From assembly GCA_028716975.1 (NCBI GenBank), contig JAQUOU010000007.1, forward strand, positions 89,831-153,830: a stretch of 64,000 bases of DNA, written 5' to 3'. The notes under the pieces are model-generated. The model made no database searches and had not been told where the DNA came from. It saw nothing but the letters and a program-made list of their open reading frames with translations. Origin of the DNA: Methylobacter sp. Lineage in GTDB: Bacteria; Pseudomonadota; Gammaproteobacteria; Methylococcales; Methylomonadaceae. A program made the translations under genes and the position numbers. Shown in pieces: positions 8,781-62,973 of this stretch; positions within the stretch are counted from its first letter, which is position 1; every line of letters starts with the position of its first letter.

Positions 8781-9633
8781 AAAACTCATACCAGCCATTT
8801 CACTTTGCGTTCTGTGCAGTTGTAGCACAGAACAAATAAAAACCACCTCTGTATCCCGGCAAACTCTCGATACCATAGCCTCCACCCCTTCCGCAACAAC
8901 CACGTACACGCATCAACTGAGTCAATTCAGACATCATTCAATATTACGAGTGAACAAGCATACTGATGATAGTGCTGCGAATGAAAATAAAGAAGAAACC
9001 TCGCAAGAAAATTTTTTCCCTCGCATTGCCCGGTATCTGAAACAGGGAATTGCATCCTGGTACGGCCCTGAATTTCACGGCAAAAAAACCGCTACCGGCG
9101 AAATATTCGATATGTATGCTATGACGGCGGCGCACAAAACACTGCCCATTCCCTCATATGCTCAAATAACTAACCTGGAAAACCAGCGTAGCATTATTGT
9201 GCGAATAAATGACCGGGGCCCTTTTGTCGGCAACAGGGTTTTGGATTTATCATACGCCGCGGCTAAAAACCTGGACCTTCACAAGGAAGGTACCGGGGCT
9301 GTAGAAATAAAAGCTTTATCGCCTGATCAGGCGCTGCCGCAATTGCAAAAAGCAGCGGCAAAACAAAAAAAGAATGTATACCTGCAAGTCGGCACCTTCG
9401 GAAGTCAAAAGAAAGCCTTGAAATTAAAAAATAAAATCGCCTCCCATCATTTACCTCAGCCTGAAATCTTATCTTCTACCTACAAGGAGTCCACTCTCTA
9501 TAAAGTACAAATGGGGCCTATACAATCAACAGCCAGTGCAGATAACCTGAATCGTCAATTGGCAAAAATAGGCATAACAGATACTCAATTTGTTACTGAA
9601 GCCAAACAAATACAAAGCGCCATGATACAATAA
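8773..9633 (+). CDS. rlpA: RlpA-family septal lytic transglycosylase lipoprotein
   Basis: RlpA acts on denuded (stem-peptide-free) glycan strands. The 286-residue protein has a lipoprotein signal with lipobox L-C-S-C (Cys17), a double-psi beta-barrel domain (about 92-180: GIASWYGPEFHGKKTATGE, MTAAHKTLP, VRINDRGPF) and a C-terminal SPOR domain (about 203-280, VYLQVGTFGSQKKALKLKN) that binds septal denuded glycans. A low-complexity linker lies between signal and barrel. It sits between mltB and the carboxypeptidase gene. Confidence 0.94.
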   Translation: MNKKLIPAISLCVLCSCSTEQIKTTSVSRQTLDTIASTPSATTTYTHQLSQFRHHSILRVNKHTDDSAANENKEETSQENFFPRIARYLKQGIASWYGPEFHGKKTATGEIFDMYAMTAAHKTLPIPSYAQITNLENQRSIIVRINDRGPFVGNRVLDLSYAAAKNLDLHKEGTGAVEIKALSPDQALPQLQKAAAKQKKNVYLQVGTFGSQKKALKLKNKIASHHLPQPEILSSTYKESTLYKVQMGPIQSTASADNLNRQLAKIGITDTQFVTEAKQIQSAMIQ

Positions 9634-17393: not shown

Positions 17394-18143
17394 ATGACGA
17401 CATTGGATATTCAGCAACTAACCGATAATCTGGCCCAAAAAAATCCGCGGGTAATCCTTAAAAAAGCGCTGGAGCTGTATGATAATATCGCCATCTCTTT
17501 TAGCGGAGCGGAAGATGTTGTGCTGATCGATATGGCGGTAAATATCAGGAAGGACATTCAGGTTTTTTCACTGGATACCGGCCGCCTGCATCCTGAAACC
17601 TACCGCTTCATCGAGAAAGTCAGAAAGCATTATCGGATAGATATAGAACTATTGACGCCGGATAGAGGGATATTGGATAGCTTTGTAAAGAATAAAGGCC
17701 TGTTCAGTTTTTATAGTGACGGGCACCAGGAATGTTGCGGTATCCGTAAAGTTGAGCCGCTAAAACGCAAACTGGCTCACCTGGATGCCTGGATTACCGG
17801 TCAGCGCAAAGATCAAAGCCTGGATACCCGGCAGAATATTCCTGAAGTACAATTAGATACTGCGTTTTCCACGCCCGAGCATCAATTAATCAAATTCAAT
17901 CCCTTGCTCAACTGGAATTCAGCGCAGGTTTGGGATTATATAGAAGCCTATCAGGTTCCCTATAATGAACTGCATGAAAGAGGTTTTATCAGCATAGGCT
18001 GCGAACCCTGCACGCGCCCCGTGCTGCCCAATCAGCACGAAAGAGCCGGCCGTTGGTGGTGGGAAGAAGCCACTAAAAAAGAATGCGGGCTGCATGCCGG
18101 AAATTTAAAAGATCAAGATATCAAGAAACCTCATCTTGAATAG
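17394..18143 (+). CDS. cysH: adenylyl-sulfate (APS) reductase, 4Fe-4S type
   Basis: This enzyme reduces adenylyl sulfate to sulfite with thioredoxin or glutathione as donor. The 249 residues hold the PAPS/APS reductase fold ([25 protein letters not shown]). The paired cysteines C114-C115 ([11 protein letters not shown]) and C203/C206 (GCEPCTRP) ligate a 4Fe-4S cluster, which marks the APS type; PAPS-specific CysH lacks them. C231 in ECGLH is the catalytic cysteine. Close linkage to gshA suggests a joint role in sulfur and thiol metabolism. Confidence 0.93.
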
Positions 18144-18238
18144 CGTTACAAAAATAACAACCTGCCGCGCACTCCTCCTGACCGCTTAGGCTATTGCCTT
18201 GAGGGGAAGATAATGACCGTTTATGCCGGATTGTGAGC

Positions 18239-18856
18239 CTACTTTCCATTGCGCGAACCTGTAACAGCAGTGAATACACCAAGCCCGATGGATGCACCTG
18301 CGGTTAAATAGCGACCATGTGTCCGGGCACTGGATGTGTTTGTAAATGTCGGAGTAATAGCACCAGCAGCAAGAGCGTAGATTATATCAGTGACTACAGC
18401 AATTGCTGCAAAAAGAGAGCCGAGCGTTATGCTTTGAAGCATTTGCGCCGATTCACTGCTCACGAATTGCGGCAAGAACGCGGCGAAAAAAATAGTTGTT
18501 TTTGGATTGAGCAAGGCAATAACGAAACCGTCTCGAAACACATGTGCAACGGAAATTGGAGTGAGCGCAGAGGAAAGTTCAGTTTGCTGACCGCGAAGCG
18601 CATGGATACCCAGATAAACAAGATAAAACGCTCCCATATACTTGACAACAGTGAAGGCAAACGGAGAAATCGTGAACAATGCTGCCAGTCCGATGGATGC
18701 GATAAGTACATTTCCAAGACTGCCGAGGGCAACGCCCGCGACGGATGCTAAGCCGATACGACGACCTTGCATCAGACTGCGAGTAACACTATAGAACACT
18801 CCGGGGCTTGGAGTTAGCGCCAGCACGAGGCTTGCAACGAGGAAGGCCGAGAACAA
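18239..18856 (-). CDS. LysE/RhtB family amino acid exporter, 5' end frameshifted
   Basis: A LysE-superfamily translocator of about 205 residues with five or six membrane helices; LTPSPGVFYSVTRSLMQGRRIGLASVAG is the family hallmark and LLNPKTTIFFAAFLPQF a second. Members export amino acids or related metabolites. The in-frame start is a TTG at 18856, but an ATG at 18879 in the neighbouring frame reads MSFFPPWPLFSAF if one T is added to the five-T run, a typical N-terminus for this family, so a one-base deletion is likely. It sits directly behind an attC site and looks like an integron cassette gene. Confidence 0.82.
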   Translation of the reverse strand: MFSAFLVASLVLALTPSPGVFYSVTRSLMQGRRIGLASVAGVALGSLGNVLIASIGLAALFTISPFAFTVVKYMGAFYLVYLGIHALRGQQTELSSALTPISVAHVFRDGFVIALLNPKTTIFFAAFLPQFVSSESAQMLQSITLGSLFAAIAVVTDIIYALAAGAITPTFTNTSSARTHGRYLTAGASIGLGVFTAVTGSRNGK

Positions 18857-18901
18857 CGGCCAAGGTGGAAAAAGCTCATTGATTGTAAAGTTTCCAAGGA
18901 A

Positions 18902-18969
18902 GCCTAACGTTTGAGGTAACCGGATTTGCGCGGCTTTATGCGCAAGGGCCGGTTGACCGAGTGGTTAGA
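18902..18969 (-). other. attC recombination site of an integron cassette
   Basis: Read on the minus strand, this 68-base site has TCTAAC, a 9-base spacer, AACCGG, a central hairpin (TTGCGC/GCGCAA), CCGGTT, a 9-base spacer and the core GTTAGGC. The left and right arms pair as expected for the folded strand recognised by IntI. GTTAGGC fits the GTTRRRY consensus with cleavage after the G. It lies 3' of the VOC gene and just before the LysE gene, where a cassette boundary should be. Confidence 0.85.
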
Positions 18970-19090
18970 GGGATGGATTAGGTAAGGCATTTAGAGCAGT
19001 CTCCTCTTAGCCCAAAGCGCCCCATATTTGAGCAGCCCTTGTATTCATATCCTTTAGCCCGGGACAAATGACATCTTTTGGCACACTGGT

Positions 19091-19576
19091 TCAACCGCGG
19101 CGCGTCGTTTCGATTGCGGCGATGTCGATCTTTTTCATCTGCATCATCGCATCGAACGCGCGCTTGGCGGCGGCGGTGTCGGGATCGGTTATCGCTTTGG
19201 TCAGAGCTAGCGGCGTAATCTGCCAGAACAAGCCCCATTTGTCCTTGCACCAGCCGCACGCACTCTCTTCGCCGCCGTTGCCGACGATGGCGTTCCAGTA
19301 ACGATCGGTTTCGGCCTGGTCAGCGGTTGCGACCTGAAACGAGAATGCCCAGTTGTGCTTGACCTCGGGTCCGCCATTGAGCCCGAGGCAGGGAATTCCC
19401 ATCACGGTAAATTCGACCGTCAACACATCCCCTTTCTTTCCGGACGGAAAGTCCCCCGGTGCGAGGTGCACCGCGCCAACGGATGAATCAGGAAAGGTCT
19501 TGGCATAAAATCGCGCCGCGTCCTCGGCGTCGCCATCGTACCAAAGGCAAATTGTATTTTTTGCTTGCTTATTCAT
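19091..19576 (-). CDS. VOC-superfamily (PhnB-like) protein
   Basis: A 161-residue protein of the vicinal-oxygen-chelate/PhnB-like group: TICLWYDGDAEDAARFYAKTF at the N-terminus, VLTVEFTVMGIPCLGLNGG, and WGLFWQITP near the C-terminus. The substrate cannot be told from sequence. The start is the ATG at 19576, preceded by GGAGAAGTAAC. Small VOC proteins are frequent integron-cassette cargo, and this one lies between two attC-like sites in the same orientation as its neighbours. Confidence 0.85.
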   Translation of the reverse strand: MNKQAKNTICLWYDGDAEDAARFYAKTFPDSSVGAVHLAPGDFPSGKKGDVLTVEFTVMGIPCLGLNGGPEVKHNWAFSFQVATADQAETDRYWNAIVGNGGEESACGWCKDKWGLFWQITPLALTKAITDPDTAAAKRAFDAMMQMKKIDIAAIETTRRG

Positions 19577-19611
19577 GTTACTTCTCCATTGTGATGAGCC
19601 CCGACGCCGCA

Positions 19612-19708
19612 GTAAAACAATGCGCTCGCGGTCTAAAGATATTGGCCCGGAAAGCTGAAAAAACAAAGCCGCATTATAACCGCGCTCCGGTTGAGCGCCA
19701 TGTTAGCG
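19612..19708 (-). other. degenerate attC-like site
   Basis: On the minus strand the site begins CGCTAAC, then a 9-base spacer and AACCGG, the same spacing as the good attC at 18902-18969. A partly complementary right arm (GAGCGCATTGTTTTAC) lies about 80 bases further on, but no clean GTTRRRY core remains. It overlaps the toxin stop codon and precedes the VOC gene. I read it as a decayed cassette boundary; the right half is uncertain. Confidence 0.5.
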
Positions 19709-19999
19709 GTTTTTGGGCCAACGTTTCGGGTTACGAGCATCATGTAATACAGCCAAAATATGTATGAGATTGCCCCGAACTGCATAAAACAAACCGTATG
19801 GGAATCGCGGAAGGAGAGCTCGGCGAACATGGGGAATTACCTCAGCATAAAGCAGAGGCGCTTGCTCTAGCCGCTTTAGCTGTAACTCCATTGCGGCGAT
19901 GAACTCTTCACCGAGACCGGGGCTTTGCAATTCATACCACTCTTGAGCTTCGCCAATTTCACGCAACGCTCGCGAAGAGAATTTTAGGCGGAACGCCAT
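19703..19999 (-). CDS. RelE/ParE-family toxin
   Basis: A 98-residue ParE-type toxin: SSRALREIGEAQEWYELQSPGLGEEF followed by RRALLPRFPYGLFYAVRGNLIHILAVLHDARNP, the usual pattern of this fold. ParE-like members poison gyrase while RelE-like members cleave mRNA; the sequence alone does not settle which. The start overlaps the antitoxin stop by 16 bases, so the pair is co-translated. Toxin-antitoxin pairs are common in integron cassettes and may stabilise the array. Confidence 0.87.
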   Translation of the reverse strand: MAFRLKFSSRALREIGEAQEWYELQSPGLGEEFIAAMELQLKRLEQAPLLYAEVIPHVRRALLPRFPYGLFYAVRGNLIHILAVLHDARNPKRWPKNR

Positions 20000-20217
20000 G
20001 ATCCATCTTTAAGGCAGGATTTCACCTGCTCCCAAGAATAACCAGCTTCCGGGTTTGCCTCAAACTCTGCCATTCGTGCTTCGAGCTCAATCTTTAGCTC
20101 AGGCGAAATCTTCACGGCTTCAGGCACCGCGGCAACGCTGTCCCAGATAAGCTCAACAAGACGAATACGCTCCTGTATCGGAAGTTCAAGAATATCGGAA
20201 ATAGAAATATTGCTCAT
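19984..20217 (-). CDS. addiction-module antitoxin (TIGR02574-like)
   Basis: A 77-residue antitoxin of the short family that pairs with ParE-like toxins: ILELPIQERIRLVELIWDSVA at the N-terminus and a C-terminal toxin-wrapping region with SWEQVKSCLKDGSW. It lies upstream of and overlaps the toxin gene, the normal order. The ATG at 20217 has AAAGGAG about 15 bases upstream (CTTTTCAG region on the plus strand). It is the first gene next to the integrase remnant. Confidence 0.87.
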   Translation of the reverse strand: MSNISISDILELPIQERIRLVELIWDSVAAVPEAVKISPELKIELEARMAEFEANPEAGYSWEQVKSCLKDGSWRSA

Positions 20218-20248
20218 GTCGGATATTGTACTCCTTTTCAGAAAACAT

Positions 20249-20273
20249 GCTAACGTACGTAGTAACCGCTAAC
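20249..20273 (-). other. half attC or attI-type core site
   Basis: On the plus strand this reads GCTAAC, a 9-base spacer, AACCG and then CTAAC again; on the minus strand it ends in CGTTAGC. The 9-base spacing between CTAAC and AACCG is identical to both attC-like sites to its left, and the sequence closely resembles the right half of the 18902-18969 site. It lies between the first cassette gene and the integrase remnant, where attI joins the first cassette. Confidence 0.55.
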
Positions 20274-20278
20274 GTTAA

Positions 20279-20303
20279 GTAGACACCTAATTTAGGTGTC
20301 TAC
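20279..20303. repeat. perfect 25-base palindrome
   Basis: Two 12-base arms, GTAGACACCTAA and TTAGGTGTCTAC, flank a single T. No T-run follows on either strand, so it is not an obvious terminator. It lies in the presumed attI region between the first cassette and the intI remnant. It could be an operator or the leftover of transposon ends; the sequence does not decide. Confidence 0.8.
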
Positions 20304-20390
20304 AAATTTTCAATCGCCAGTGTATACCACTTTTAACTTCTCAATAAGTTATTGATATTATTCAACCCGGTTTTGTATAAAAGCCCTATT

Positions 20391-20510
20391 ATGCTAAATA
20401 CAAAGACACCTGCAAAACGCCTTGATCAAGTCTGTGATCGTATCAGCGTCAAGGAGGATAACATCCATACCGAGGCGCAAACAACACTATTTGCTAATTA
20501 TTTCCGGACT
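20391..20510 (+). pseudogene. intI: 5' remnant of an integron-type tyrosine integrase
   Basis: The frame from the ATG at 20391 encodes KRLDQVCDRISVKEDNIHTE, which resembles the conserved IntI N-terminus (KRLLDQVRDRIRxKHYSIRTE) and lacks one leucine. The similarity stops after about 31 codons, and 30-odd codons later the frame runs into a repeat element. None of the catalytic domain is present. It is divergent from the cassette genes, as intI is in integrons. A stub of another XerC-like recombinase with a similar N-terminus is the alternative. Confidence 0.6.
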
Positions 20511-20542
20511 GTAGGTATACTGATGGACAATTCTTTAATCCT

Positions 20543-20718
20543 AAAATCCACAGTTGAGCATTCCAAAACCCCGTTCGCACTGAGCCTGTCGAAGGGTGAG
20601 CGGGGTTTTGGAATGCGGGTGAGCCTGTGAAAGCCGTTCATGCTTCGACAGGGCTCTCCTGAGATAAGCCGAAGGGCTCAGCACGAACGGCTTTCACACA
20701 CTCCAACTGCGGTTTTTA
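20543..20718. repeat. MITE-like palindromic repeat element, copy 1
   Basis: The ends are imperfect inverted repeats (left AAAATCCACAGTTGAGCATT, right CACTCCAACTGCGGTTTTTA) related to the perfect ends of the element at 41763-41890. Inside are a hairpin AAAACCCCG/CGGGGTTTT and a second, GTGAAAGCCGTTC with its complement, around copies of a CTTCGACAGGGCTC core. No protein is encoded. It follows directly on the integrase stub. The rest of 20304-20858 shows no gene. Confidence 0.7.
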
Positions 20719-20858
20719 GGTTAATTTGTAAATCATCACACAATGGATGGGATTTTTCACCTGGATCGCTTTATGCCATGAACCTGCTAAATTGGCATCA
20801 CGGGCAACACTTTAGTCGATTTTGGGTTGTTTTTACCAGGAAAAATTAAAAGCTGCGA

Positions 20859-21059
20859 TTATAAAGATTCATCTTCATCATCAATGTCTCCCGATAGAGG
20901 CTCGCCGGGAATCCTCTTTTCTTCCATCGCCCATTCCCCCAAATCTATTAATTTACAGCGTTCGCAGCAGAAGGGCTTAAATGGCTGTTCAGCAGTCCAG
21001 GGAACGGGGTGTTTACAAGTCGGGCATTTTACAATAAGCGGTTTGCCGGATGATGGCAT
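20859..21059 (-). CDS. yacG: DNA gyrase inhibitor YacG
   Basis: YacG is a small zinc protein that binds GyrB and blocks DNA binding by gyrase. The 66 residues from the ATG at 21059 include the zinc site CPTCKHPV and [14 protein letters not shown] and an acidic tail ([14 protein letters not shown]). The start overlaps the zapD stop (TGATG), so I prefer it to a TTG at 21071. It ends the minus-strand pil-coaE-zapD operon, the order usual in gammaproteobacteria. Confidence 0.93.
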
Positions 21060-21829
21060 CAGAACAGACAACGGGTTAAGGCGAAAGGAATATCATCTTG
21101 GCTTTGGATGGGCCGTTTATCATCAAAAGACGGTATCATAAACCTGATGCTGCAACGGTGTTTGCCTCCGCTTATCTCTGCAAAACAGGGCAGAGATTTA
21201 TCCAGGCTTACCTTGATCAACTGATAGGGTTGACTTTTATCCAGGGCAATCTGGAAAAAACCCGCCTCCGCAACTTCCTCAGTAGAGGCATTGCTGTTAC
21301 GTATAAAATTAAGTATAAGATTAATGGCGGTGCGTATATCTTCAAACGGACTGCACCAACGTTCCAAATCTTTTAAGCGATTGGATTCCACTTGCTCCAG
21401 CCAGAAATGGAACTCAGGCAGATCAAAGGAACAGGTTCCTCCAGGGATCGAGCTGCGCTGGGCAATACTTTGAAATAAGTCGCTTTCCATGACGTTGGCG
21501 CCGATTTTTCCTGTGGTGGCATAGAGTCTTTTGCTGGTTTGATTTAATTGGATGAGAATTTGTTGCAATTTTTCTGTGTCCACACCTTCGCTGTTAGCAA
21601 TTTTATTCAGCACGTTTATATGCCGATCCAACTCTTTGAGTATTTCTGATTTAAGGTCGTTACGCCTTAAAATCATAATAATATCAAGCAGGGTATTAAT
21701 AGCAGCTCGTGTATCCGCCACGGTTGTGCCGGACAGAAAATGGTTGAACTGTTGAAAAAGCTGTTCGAGCCTTATGAAAACCCGGATTCGTTCATTGAGT
21801 GGAAATTCATAGGTGATTGTGCTGTTCAC
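21059..21829 (-). CDS. zapD: cell division protein ZapD
   Basis: ZapD binds FtsZ and promotes bundling of its filaments at the division ring. The 256-residue protein begins [22 protein letters not shown], the family N-terminus, and contains FRNDLK-like [18 protein letters not shown] and [17 protein letters not shown]. The start is a GTG with AAAGGA about 12 bases upstream. It lies between coaE and yacG and overlaps the latter. Confidence 0.93.
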
Positions 21830-59291: not shown

Positions 59292-60046
59292 GGTTGTGTC
59301 GCAAATTTTCTCGAAATCAAGGACAATGTTCCGCTTTTTAGCCAAGTGAAGCCCCCCACTGATCCGTTTTAAAGGCGCGCATTTCCCCCGGAAATTATCC
59401 TGTACGCCGTATTTTTCTACGTCCGTTACAACGTGTTATATCGTAACTGGGAGGAAATTATGGAAGAGCGTGGCGTCAATGTTGACCCTGCCACCCTGAA
59501 GAACCGTTGGGTTATCAACGTCTCCCGGCTGATCACGGCTGAAGTCAAAAAACGCAAGCGTGCTGTCGACAAATACGGCGAAACCCTTGATTTCATGTTG
59601 TCCGAACAGCGCGACGAAACAGAGGCCACCGCGTTCTTCAAACAAGCCATCGCTACTAACGGATTCCCATAGAAAGTTGTCATGGATAAAAGCGGCGCCC
59701 ACTAGGCCGGCTTGGAGAACATTAAGAGATTGCTGATGCTGGAATAGATTGCTGATGCTGGCTGGTTTAATCAGCTTTGTTGAAATACTCCAGGTTAAGT
59801 AGTTGAATAACCTGATTAAACAGGATCATCGTTTCATCAAGAAAATCACCACTCCCATGATGGGATTCAAAGCCTTTCATTCAGCGCAAGCAACCATTGA
59901 AGGCTTTGAAACAGCACACATGATTCGAAAGGGATCAGCTGTCTGATGAAAATAGTTCCGTTTATAAGCAGTTTATAGCTTTAGCAGAATAACCGTATCC
60001 ACAGATAATTGCGGCTTTGCACTTTATGAATATTTGCGACAGAACT
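59292..60046 (+). mobile_element. degenerate IS6-family insertion sequence
   Basis: The ends are inverted repeats, GGTTGTGTCGCAAATTTTC on the left and GAATATTTGCGACAGAACT on the right, which agree at about 16 of 18 positions. The 755-base length fits the IS6 family. Inside, frames encode PPEIILYAVFFYVRYNVLYRNWEE, RAVDKYGETLDFMLSEQRDETEATAFFKQA and ITTPMMGFKAFHSAQATIEGF, all IS6/IS240-type transposase blocks, but in several frames with stops. A 19-base duplication (GATTGCTGATGCTG repeated) lies near 59729-59760. No clear target duplication. Confidence 0.83.
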
Positions 60047-60050
60047 CAAA

Positions 60051-60341
60051 TCATGTCGTCTCAGATGTGCAAGAAGCATGCAATTTTGCAAGTAGTTCAC
60101 TTAGCAACTGTATGATTTTATTCGCCAGGCTATTGATCTGCTTTATTTTTGTAGCAGAACTTTGTCTGACTCGATCGAGAGTATAGCCGATGACACCAAT
60201 GGTAAAAAATGACATCATAATTCGGGCTATAAGAACAAGTTGACGGATTTCTATCACTTGTTTTCCAGGTATTTCTTTTATGAATGGAGCATGCGCTATC
60301 GCACTTGATGATGTTGAAGCTTTGATTAGGTGAGTATTCAT
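60051..60341 (-). CDS. small membrane protein of unknown function
   Basis: A 96-residue protein with one or two hydrophobic segments (QLVLIARIMMSFFTIGVIGYTLD) and a helical C-terminal part (KIIQLLSELLAKLHASC). The ATG at 60341 has AGGAG nine bases upstream, which argues that it is real. It ends 4 bases from the IS6 relic. No family is recognised, and it could be a remnant of a longer gene. Confidence 0.5.
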   Translation of the reverse strand: MNTHLIKASTSSSAIAHAPFIKEIPGKQVIEIRQLVLIARIMMSFFTIGVIGYTLDRVRQSSATKIKQINSLANKIIQLLSELLAKLHASCTSETT

Positions 60342-61489: not shown

Positions 61490-61650
61490 TTAATGGGTGT
61501 TTTTCTGTGTTAATTGCCCTTCCATAGTTCAAACTATTTTAAGATAAATCAATTAGTTAACTATCATCCCTTGTTTGTTGTGTTGATTTGTATTCTACGA
61601 TATACTGCAATTATGGTTACAAACCGGTTACAAATTTAAAGGGGTGTTTT

Positions 61651-62973
61651 ATGGCAAAAGTTAAGCTGACAGCCGGAAGGATTGCGGGCTTTAAGTGCGA
61701 TGAATCAAGGGCTCAAGCCTTTTTATGGTGTGCCGAAGTACCGGGCTTGGGTGTGCGAGTTACACCAAATTCAACCGCCAAGTGCTACATTTTCCAGTCA
61801 AAAGTTAATGGGCAATCAATGCGCGTGACGATTGGCAGCGTTAAAGTATGGACTATTTCAGACGCCCAAGCCGAAGCTCGATGCTTACAAATCATGATAG
61901 ATAACGGTGAAGACCCGCGCCAAGTGAAAGCTGATAAGCAAGCCGCCAAGGAAGCGGCGAAGCGAGCAAAAGAAGCTGAGGCCGCTGCACGGTTGATGCA
62001 GGAAGCCCGCGAGTCAGTAACAGTACGCATGGCCTGGGATGAATATCTAAAGGTACGGAAGCCTTTTTGGGGTGAGCGTCACTATGCTGACCATATAGAG
62101 GCTATGCAAATCGGCGGCGAAACAAGGAAGCGTAGCCATAAGCTGACTGAACCCGGTACCCTTGCATCATTAGCAGCAGTTCGACTTATTGACCTGACTC
62201 CCGAACTGGTGACGGCATGGGCGAAGGTGGAAGGCGAAAAACGGCCTGGACGCGCCCGACTTGCAAGCCGCCTCTTATCTGTTTTTCTAACATGGTGCGC
62301 AGCATATCCGGCTTATCGGGAAATTGTTAAAGGTAACGCCGCCAAGAACAAATCAGCTCGTGAAGTTCTAGGCAAACCCCAAAAGAAAAATGATGCGTTA
62401 CAACGTGAGCAATTGCCCGCATGGTTCGCCGCCGTTAAACAAATCGGGAACCCTATTATTAGCGCATACCTGCAATGCTTGCTGCTAACAGGGGCGCGCG
62501 CCAATGAATTAACCGCCCTACGCTGGCAGGATGTAGAATTTCAGTGGGGCAGCCTGACCATACGGGACAAGATGCAAGGGTTGAGAGTTATCCCCCTGCC
62601 CCCTTACATGAGTCAATTGCTGGCCGCATTGCCGCGCCGTAATGAGTTTGTTTTTAGCAGCCCTACCGCTGCATCCGGCCACCTGACCGACCCGCACGAT
62701 GCGAATTATAAAGTTTGTGCTGTGACTGGGGTGGATGTGACTCTGCACGGTTTACGCCGTAGCTTTGCCAGTCTGTGCGAATGGATAGAAATTCCCGCCG
62801 GAATCGCTGCACAGATACAGGGACACGCGCCGCAAGGCGTTAGAGAACAGCACTATATTCGCCGCCCGCTCGACCTGTTGCGGATGTGGCATATTAAAAT
62901 CGAAGCGTGGATGTTAGAGCAAGCCGGAATCGAGTTTGTACCGATGCCGATGGGTTTGCGTGTAGTGGCATAA
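61651..62973 (+). CDS. tyrosine-type site-specific integrase
   Basis: A 440-residue integrase of an integrative element: an N-terminal arm-binding domain (about 1-95, LTAGRIAGFKCDE), a core-binding domain and a catalytic domain with R283 (TGARANELTALRW), H366 and R369 (HGLRRSF), H392 (GHAP) and Y402 (HYIRRP). All five residues are intact. The ATG at 61651 has AAGGGG seven bases upstream; the frame is open from 61588 without similarity. It lies next to the tRNA-His fragment and reads into the element. Confidence 0.92.
   Translation: MAKVKLTAGRIAGFKCDESRAQAFLWCAEVPGLGVRVTPNSTAKCYIFQSKVNGQSMRVTIGSVKVWTISDAQAEARCLQIMIDNGEDPRQVKADKQAAKEAAKRAKEAEAAARLMQEARESVTVRMAWDEYLKVRKPFWGERHYADHIEAMQIGGETRKRSHKLTEPGTLASLAAVRLIDLTPELVTAWAKVEGEKRPGRARLASRLLSVFLTWCAAYPAYREIVKGNAAKNKSAREVLGKPQKKNDALQREQLPAWFAAVKQIGNPIISAYLQCLLLTGARANELTALRWQDVEFQWGSLTIRDKMQGLRVIPLPPYMSQLLAALPRRNEFVFSSPTAASGHLTDPHDANYKVCAVTGVDVTLHGLRRSFASLCEWIEIPAGIAAQIQGHAPQGVREQHYIRRPLDLLRMWHIKIEAWMLEQAGIEFVPMPMGLRVVA

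Follow-up and report, generated by a model that had tools for sequence, protein, structure and literature searches.

Integrons are usually pictured as one integrase and one attI site acting in cis. Arrays that depart from this arrangement have been grouped as CALINs (clusters of attC sites lacking an integron integrase), which are said to be mobilizable in trans (PMC12444791) and for which off-target insertion, intI loss and rearrangement are among the proposed origins (PMC8618304). IntegronFinder 2.0 is described as limited to class 1 in its detection of attI (PMC9024848); attI sites outside class 1, and the platforms that they mark, would therefore be filed as CALINs or missed. Integrons have been noted in Methylococcus strains (PMC8527097).

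The window, by which we mean the whole 64,000-nucleotide stretch analyzed here, is part of contig C7 of a Methylobacter genome of 4.28 Mb in 69 contigs. We consider it probable that it contains an integron platform with a predicted attI, cassettes and about 30 codons of intI, and that the cassettes were inserted in trans by an IntI encoded elsewhere in the cell. The features of the locus, in order of position, are as follows.

Ending at 18143: cysH, flanking the array.
18239..18856, minus strand: LysE-type exporter, third cassette gene (PF01810, E 3.6e-30).
18902..18970, minus strand: complete attC (R'' CTCTAAC, R' GTTAGGC), from the scorer, covariance model, left-arm rank and fold.
19091..19576, minus strand: VOC-type (3-dmu-9_3-mt) protein, second cassette gene (PF06983, E 5.4e-47).
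19631..19708, minus strand: degraded attC, with the left arm (19690-19708) present and the right half gone.
19703..19999, minus strand: ParE-type toxin, first cassette (PF05016, E 4e-9).
19984..20217, minus strand: antitoxin paired with ParE, first cassette (PF09720, E 8.3e-16; TIGR02574 over cut-off).
20248..20268, minus strand: third attC-like pattern of the first-pass annotation, possibly the right half of a lost attC, unsupported by score.
20271..20331, plus strand: attI, from model R1 and alignments, with a predicted crossover between 20273 and 20272 on the cassette strand.
20391..20486, plus strand: 5' stub of intI, about 30 codons, with ATG at 20391.
20859-21071: yacG, flanking the array on the other side from cysH.

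The domain matches bear out the first-pass annotation's description of minus-strand LysE, VOC-type and toxin–antitoxin units, and the cassettes, attC sites, attI and intI stub together uphold its view of an integron without its integrase. The start codon of the LysE gene is uncertain and may lie farther upstream, within an open frame of 241 aa. LysE relatives at E 1e-20 occur in six of 201 family genomes, with the window's own genome counted; the best identity in any other family genome is 41%. An Rfam scan gave two matches, both unrelated and under the gathering score, and a tRNA scan gave none. Beyond the intI stub lies a repeat-type insertion at about 20536-20722, its ends judged by eye, bounded by the inverted sequences CCTAAAAtCC...GGtTTTTAGG and possibly by a TTAAT target duplication (also by eye); matches to its end occur elsewhere in the genome eight times, with E up to 0.72.

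Three attC-like sites, one well formed and two degraded, had been proposed as separators of the cassettes. Of these, 18902-18970 stands as a complete site and 19690-19708 as a half site, while the third finds no support in the scores. An ad hoc attC scorer, trained on 21 attC-like sites around IntI genes of other genera and run on both strands, gave 35.5 for 18902-18970 against a best of 22.8 among 30 dinucleotide shuffles of the whole window. A covariance model built from 22 attC sites, exclusively from other genera, scored two of the three proposed sites in the window, both on the minus strand (24.2 bits for 19631-19708 and 20.8 bits for 18902-18970); the whole-genome E-values are 0.026 and 0.18, respectively, so that each site, taken singly, is modest. 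Model R2 works mostly by sequence, because just 5 base pairs are used in it. The arms of 18902-18970 and 19690-19708 are the top two attC left arms in the 64 kb on both strands. When folded, the strand of the complete site that lies opposite the cassettes forms a long hairpin (z −3.33), and the half site 19631-19708 gave no hairpin signal on folding (z −0.40); resemblances to the latter occur on contig C9 and at C7:60010-60099, with a full-length form in genome G027. The third pattern is present literally at 20250-20268, where it sits between attI and the first cassette and does not separate cassettes; between 20240 and 20290, the highest-scoring right arm is no better than 24th in the window and falls on the attI core (20267-20281) instead of on the third pattern. 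By eye, 18173-18191, close to cysH, could plausibly be a terminal attC left arm, but it ranks 648th in the window and was set aside. Where a CALIN calls for two or more attC sites with no integrase nearby, this array thus offers one complete and one half site, with two model matches, and both sites share one orientation, on the minus strand and away from intI.

The first-pass annotation overlooked three things: the attI between the stub and the cassettes, the broken integron on contig C9, and the integrase-less attI sites spread across the family. A conserved block beginning AACGTTAAGTAGACACC stands upstream of intact intI in G004 and G024, and begins AACATTAAG upstream of intact intI in G017; with small changes, the same attI block is present at 20271 of the window, on C29 and C9, and in Candidatus Methylobacter favarea. 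In whole-genome scans with attI model R1, which comprises the sequences of the three intact platforms (G004, G017, G024) plus C9, the window attI reaches E 1.1e-8, and the favarea copy at the cysH–yacG locus only E 0.007. The frame of the stub aligns with the first 30 or so IntI residues, and its local alignment exceeds all 2000 shuffles for four of the ten IntI tested, these being the four of matching class (77 against a shuffle maximum of 50 for G004; 68 against 38 for C9). The remaining six belong to other clades and gave p from 0.0005 to 0.15. The IntI N-terminal pattern claimed for the stub is therefore confirmed by alignment to IntI of the matching class; the IntI profile alone gives E 0.12, equalled by an unrelated frame, and Pfam and NCBIfam scans of the stub returned nothing. 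The stub tail YFRTVGILM looks C-terminal, but aligns no better than shuffles (p 0.40-0.77 for the three IntI shown), and an internal deletion of intI is therefore not claimed. A complete integron has a functional intI in cis and an attI beside it; here a predicted attI adjoins about 30 codons, with no IntI family match at this place. Elsewhere in the window, at 61561-62970, a stop-to-stop frame of 470 aa has weak tyrosine-recombinase similarity (E 0.12 with the IntI profile).

Other integron remains are scattered through the same genome. TIGR02249 exceeds its cut-off at a single place, on contig C9, where the match is broken into frames; the lesions are a frameshift near codon 57 and an 11-base tandem duplication. 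This second integron (L010 165-1273, L009 15300-18180) combines the frameshifted IntI with an attI and a divergent array beside an mpl-looking gene, the array holding HicB-like, RelE/RelB-like and other small genes (names by eye). Further attI matches lie on C29 and, in part, on C11. Off the known arrays, attC matches occur on C48 and at C7:60010, with weaker ones elsewhere. The C7 site (60010-60099; L070 9953-10042) is a lone, well-scored attC about 30 kb outside the window, whose neighbors, judged by eye, are a nucleotidyltransferase/HEPN-type pair and a restriction-like gene. The C48 site (9350-9472, L186) is a lone attC of 123 bases and 116.5 bits; model scans of this 16.7 kb contig gave neither an attI nor a second attC. 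With the family profile at its cut-off, no intact IntI was found in the genome, and since the only IntI found, that of C9, carries a frameshift and a tandem duplication, the integron system of this genome now looks dead. The first-pass annotation held that such a cluster depends on an integrase from elsewhere; this fits the relatives described below, but the only IntI over cut-off in this genome is broken.

Among the 60 relatives compared, Candidatus Methylobacter favarea (G001) is the sole congener, and cysH and yacG flank an array in both genomes. The favarea locus has the attI, the leader and a shorter stub, with 77% identity to the window over 201 bp, and three attC sites. Matches to the LysE, VOC, ParE and antitoxin genes were all lacking at this locus, and for LysE no match at E 1e-20 was found in the favarea genome as a whole. 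Against conservation of one gene order at the locus across the genus, the congener thus carries different genes. The breakpoints of the two stubs are not the same, so that a single ancestral loss of the integrase at the cysH–yacG locus, though likely, is less than certain. The favarea IntI belongs to another clade and carries a stop. A similar pairing joins contig C29 of the window's genome to favarea C22, which have in common an attI, a truncated intI and the DNA that follows (81% over 274 bp), and in which no common cassette-side DNA was found. Treatment of C29 and C22 as one locus was rejected, since the favarea counterpart of the downstream gene is on C46, with the tail and without an attI match; C22 and C29 may be paralogous copies, and the claim made for them is limited to a common truncated platform with different cassettes.

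The attI model extends these observations to the family. At E 0.001 it gave 114 matches in 45 of 201 family genomes (these are matches, and in G215 two pairs of them lie less than 50 bases apart); outside the family, this threshold was reached in two of 24 genomes of the order. Among the IntI matches listed, which reach about E 1e-43 for a threshold of 1e-35, at least 15 of the 114 attI matches lie less than 400 bases from a full IntI and at least three from a broken one, and at most 96 have no IntI inside 400 bases. The number of such orphans is an upper figure because fragments and contig ends hide IntI; G029 and L239 retain degraded pieces of intI. Two or more attI matches occur in 27 genomes, with a maximum of nine. 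A full IntI stands at such an attI in at least 13 genomes; of these 13, seven also carry orphan matches, again among the IntI matches listed. The first 25 attI sites divide into three with intact IntI, three with a broken long IntI and 19 with none or a short piece. Cassette-side attC was found in 12 of these 19, ten by the scorer and two (G024 s2 and C11 of the window's genome) by the covariance model alone; the lower scorer threshold used for the first 25 sites gave one match on the control sides, on the opposite strand, in L009. A further 39 of the 96 orphans were taken non-randomly, more complete genomes first, and some of the remaining 57 had been seen among the earlier sites. Among the 39, attC lies on the cassette side in 12 and on the control sides in none, and an IntI-like piece is detectable beside six. 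At 27 of the 39 sites (within L237-L276), an attI-like sequence is present and attC went undetected at the threshold in up to 6 kb; such sites might be empty platforms, carry diverged attC, or reflect another use of the motif. Seven such attI-like matches are in G147, and the four fetched were all empty. One further site, L202 6989-7349 (G004 C123), looks by eye like two truncated integron starts in tandem: an attI start is followed about 230 bases later by a second leader with IntI residues 23-57.

We propose the name satellite attI platform for a site that combines an attI of a class with intact IntI elsewhere in the family, a truncated intI and an array on the cassette side, all of which are found in the window. 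When 52 satellites were scored and the 32 with a score above 100 and a start near attI were retained, 18 of the 32 were found to lose homology to intact platforms no more than four codons from LLDQ, the first conserved motif of IntI; in five, the window included, homology ends 21 to 28 codons past LLDQ. A complete integron also has a cassette promoter, Pc. In 28 of 53 satellites, the sigma-70-like site ranked best by an ad hoc promoter scorer reads into the cassettes and has its −35 between 104 and 124 bases from attI; 20 shuffles gave 2-12 such satellites, and the other strand gave five. It would appear, then, that satellites retain a docking site plus a promoter. The promoter-like site of the window is off the conserved place, which fits decay here.

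Evidence that bears on loading in trans comes from G024, a genome of one contig with one IntI over cut-off and five attI matches. A 332-bp cassette occupies the third position in its main array and the first position at two satellites, s1 and s4, with at least 99% identity (99.1% over 332 between s1 and s4). In all three copies the identity starts at the G^TT crossover, and between the main array and s1 it stops at the next crossover. The attI of s4 is only 72.5% identical to the main attI over 51 bp, and this divergence argues against copying of a larger block; s1 and the main platform are 97% identical over 158 bp, so that homologous exchange is possible for s1 and less so for s4. Three of the four G024 satellites (s1-s3, of L187-L190) have common DNA beyond the stub, to differing extents.

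Comparisons between species point the same way. Among 52 platforms without full intI (38 of the 39 further orphans and 14 earlier sites, L267 being left out with a cassette side of 331 bp), ten interspecies pairs at six loci have 232-959 bp of flank in common beyond the stub. The DNA adjoining attI on the cassette side is common to none of the ten; in seven, no cassette-side match was found in up to 2.5 kb (less for L274/L275), and in three a match appears only at 470 or more bases away. In L242, L246 and L256 the common flank begins within 213 bases of attI, which means that all three lack the integrase body from almost the same point. The distance from attI to the common flank varies for L237/L239, L241/L273, the G015 site and the window pair, and L237 and L239 have unequal amounts of intI left. 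Given separate losses in each lineage, replacement of cassettes could predate the loss of the integrase.

A mechanism consistent with these patterns is one in which an IntI of matching class, encoded at one main integron, would recombine attC cassettes into all attI copies, so that the main array and the satellites would receive cassettes from that one enzyme. Satellites that retain attI, often together with a promoter-like site directed toward the cassettes, could then express their first cassettes. In the genome of the window such a system would now be dead. For the family at large, we see an even chance that one IntI loads and reshuffles cassettes at up to nine dispersed platforms that have shed the enzyme but still possess attI, cassette promoter and intI start, with cassettes expressed simultaneously from several sites on the chromosome.

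An ordinary dead chromosomal integron, whose own integrase captured the cassettes, was then deleted and left the array static since, is a reading that we take seriously while judging it somewhat doubtful. Plain decay fits the stub, the decayed attC and the misplaced promoter, the C9 IntI is itself frameshifted, and Xanthomonas is described as offering a precedent in which intI inactivation was followed by steadier arrays (PMC12444791). Yet the congener has the same stub without the window's cassette genes at the locus, the cassette side adjoining attI differs in all ten pairs at common loci elsewhere, and cassettes are shared exactly within G024.

It is unlikely, in our judgment, that homologous recombination and segmental duplication among copies of the integron account for the origin and remodeling of satellites, with no part played by IntI in trans. 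The near-identity of s1 to the main platform, the DNA that s1-s3 share past the stub and the homology offered by conserved attC repeats would all suit such exchange; the diverged attI of s4, followed by a near-identical first cassette from the crossover on, and the renewed parting of s1 and main exactly at the next crossover do not. Far less probable still is that these are ordinary chromosomal genes with attC-like repeats by chance. The third site, the profile match of the stub and the whole-genome E-values of both attC are each weak singly, but the attI and attC model matches together contradict chance, as do the stub alignment, the attC score against shuffles, the left-arm ranks, the hairpin fold and a LysE gene with no favarea match at E 1e-20 and a best family identity of 41%. 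Insertion in trans remains the reading that we prefer for the window.

If attI copies without an integrase are loaded in trans, one enzyme would serve dispersed expression platforms. Some arrays now called CALINs would then be active docking sites, and the capture of cassettes may continue after the local integrase is lost. Among the titles and abstract beginnings listed in searches of open-access literature, none named attI platforms that lack an integrase and occur several times in one genome.

The known systems each share part of this picture. The attG sites and delta-attI (PMC12901181; attG also PMC12444791) likewise involve recombination by IntI outside the usual attI and attC; they are described, however, as consensus genomic sites or as pieces of attI inside cassettes (PMC12901181), whereas the sites described here are attI, with about 60 conserved bases, plus the leader and the start of intI. 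The window resembles a CALIN in having attC cassettes without an adjoining integrase and differs in that its array begins at a recognizable attI with an intI stub. A further parallel is the sedentary integron at ilvD in Xanthomonas, which is described as having a fixed chromosomal place, a broken or deleted intI and a retained array, with CALINs at other loci within the genus (PMC12444791). There, intI is described at ilvD only (PMC12444791); here, by contrast, there are several attI platforms per genome, with cassettes in common between them in at least one genome.
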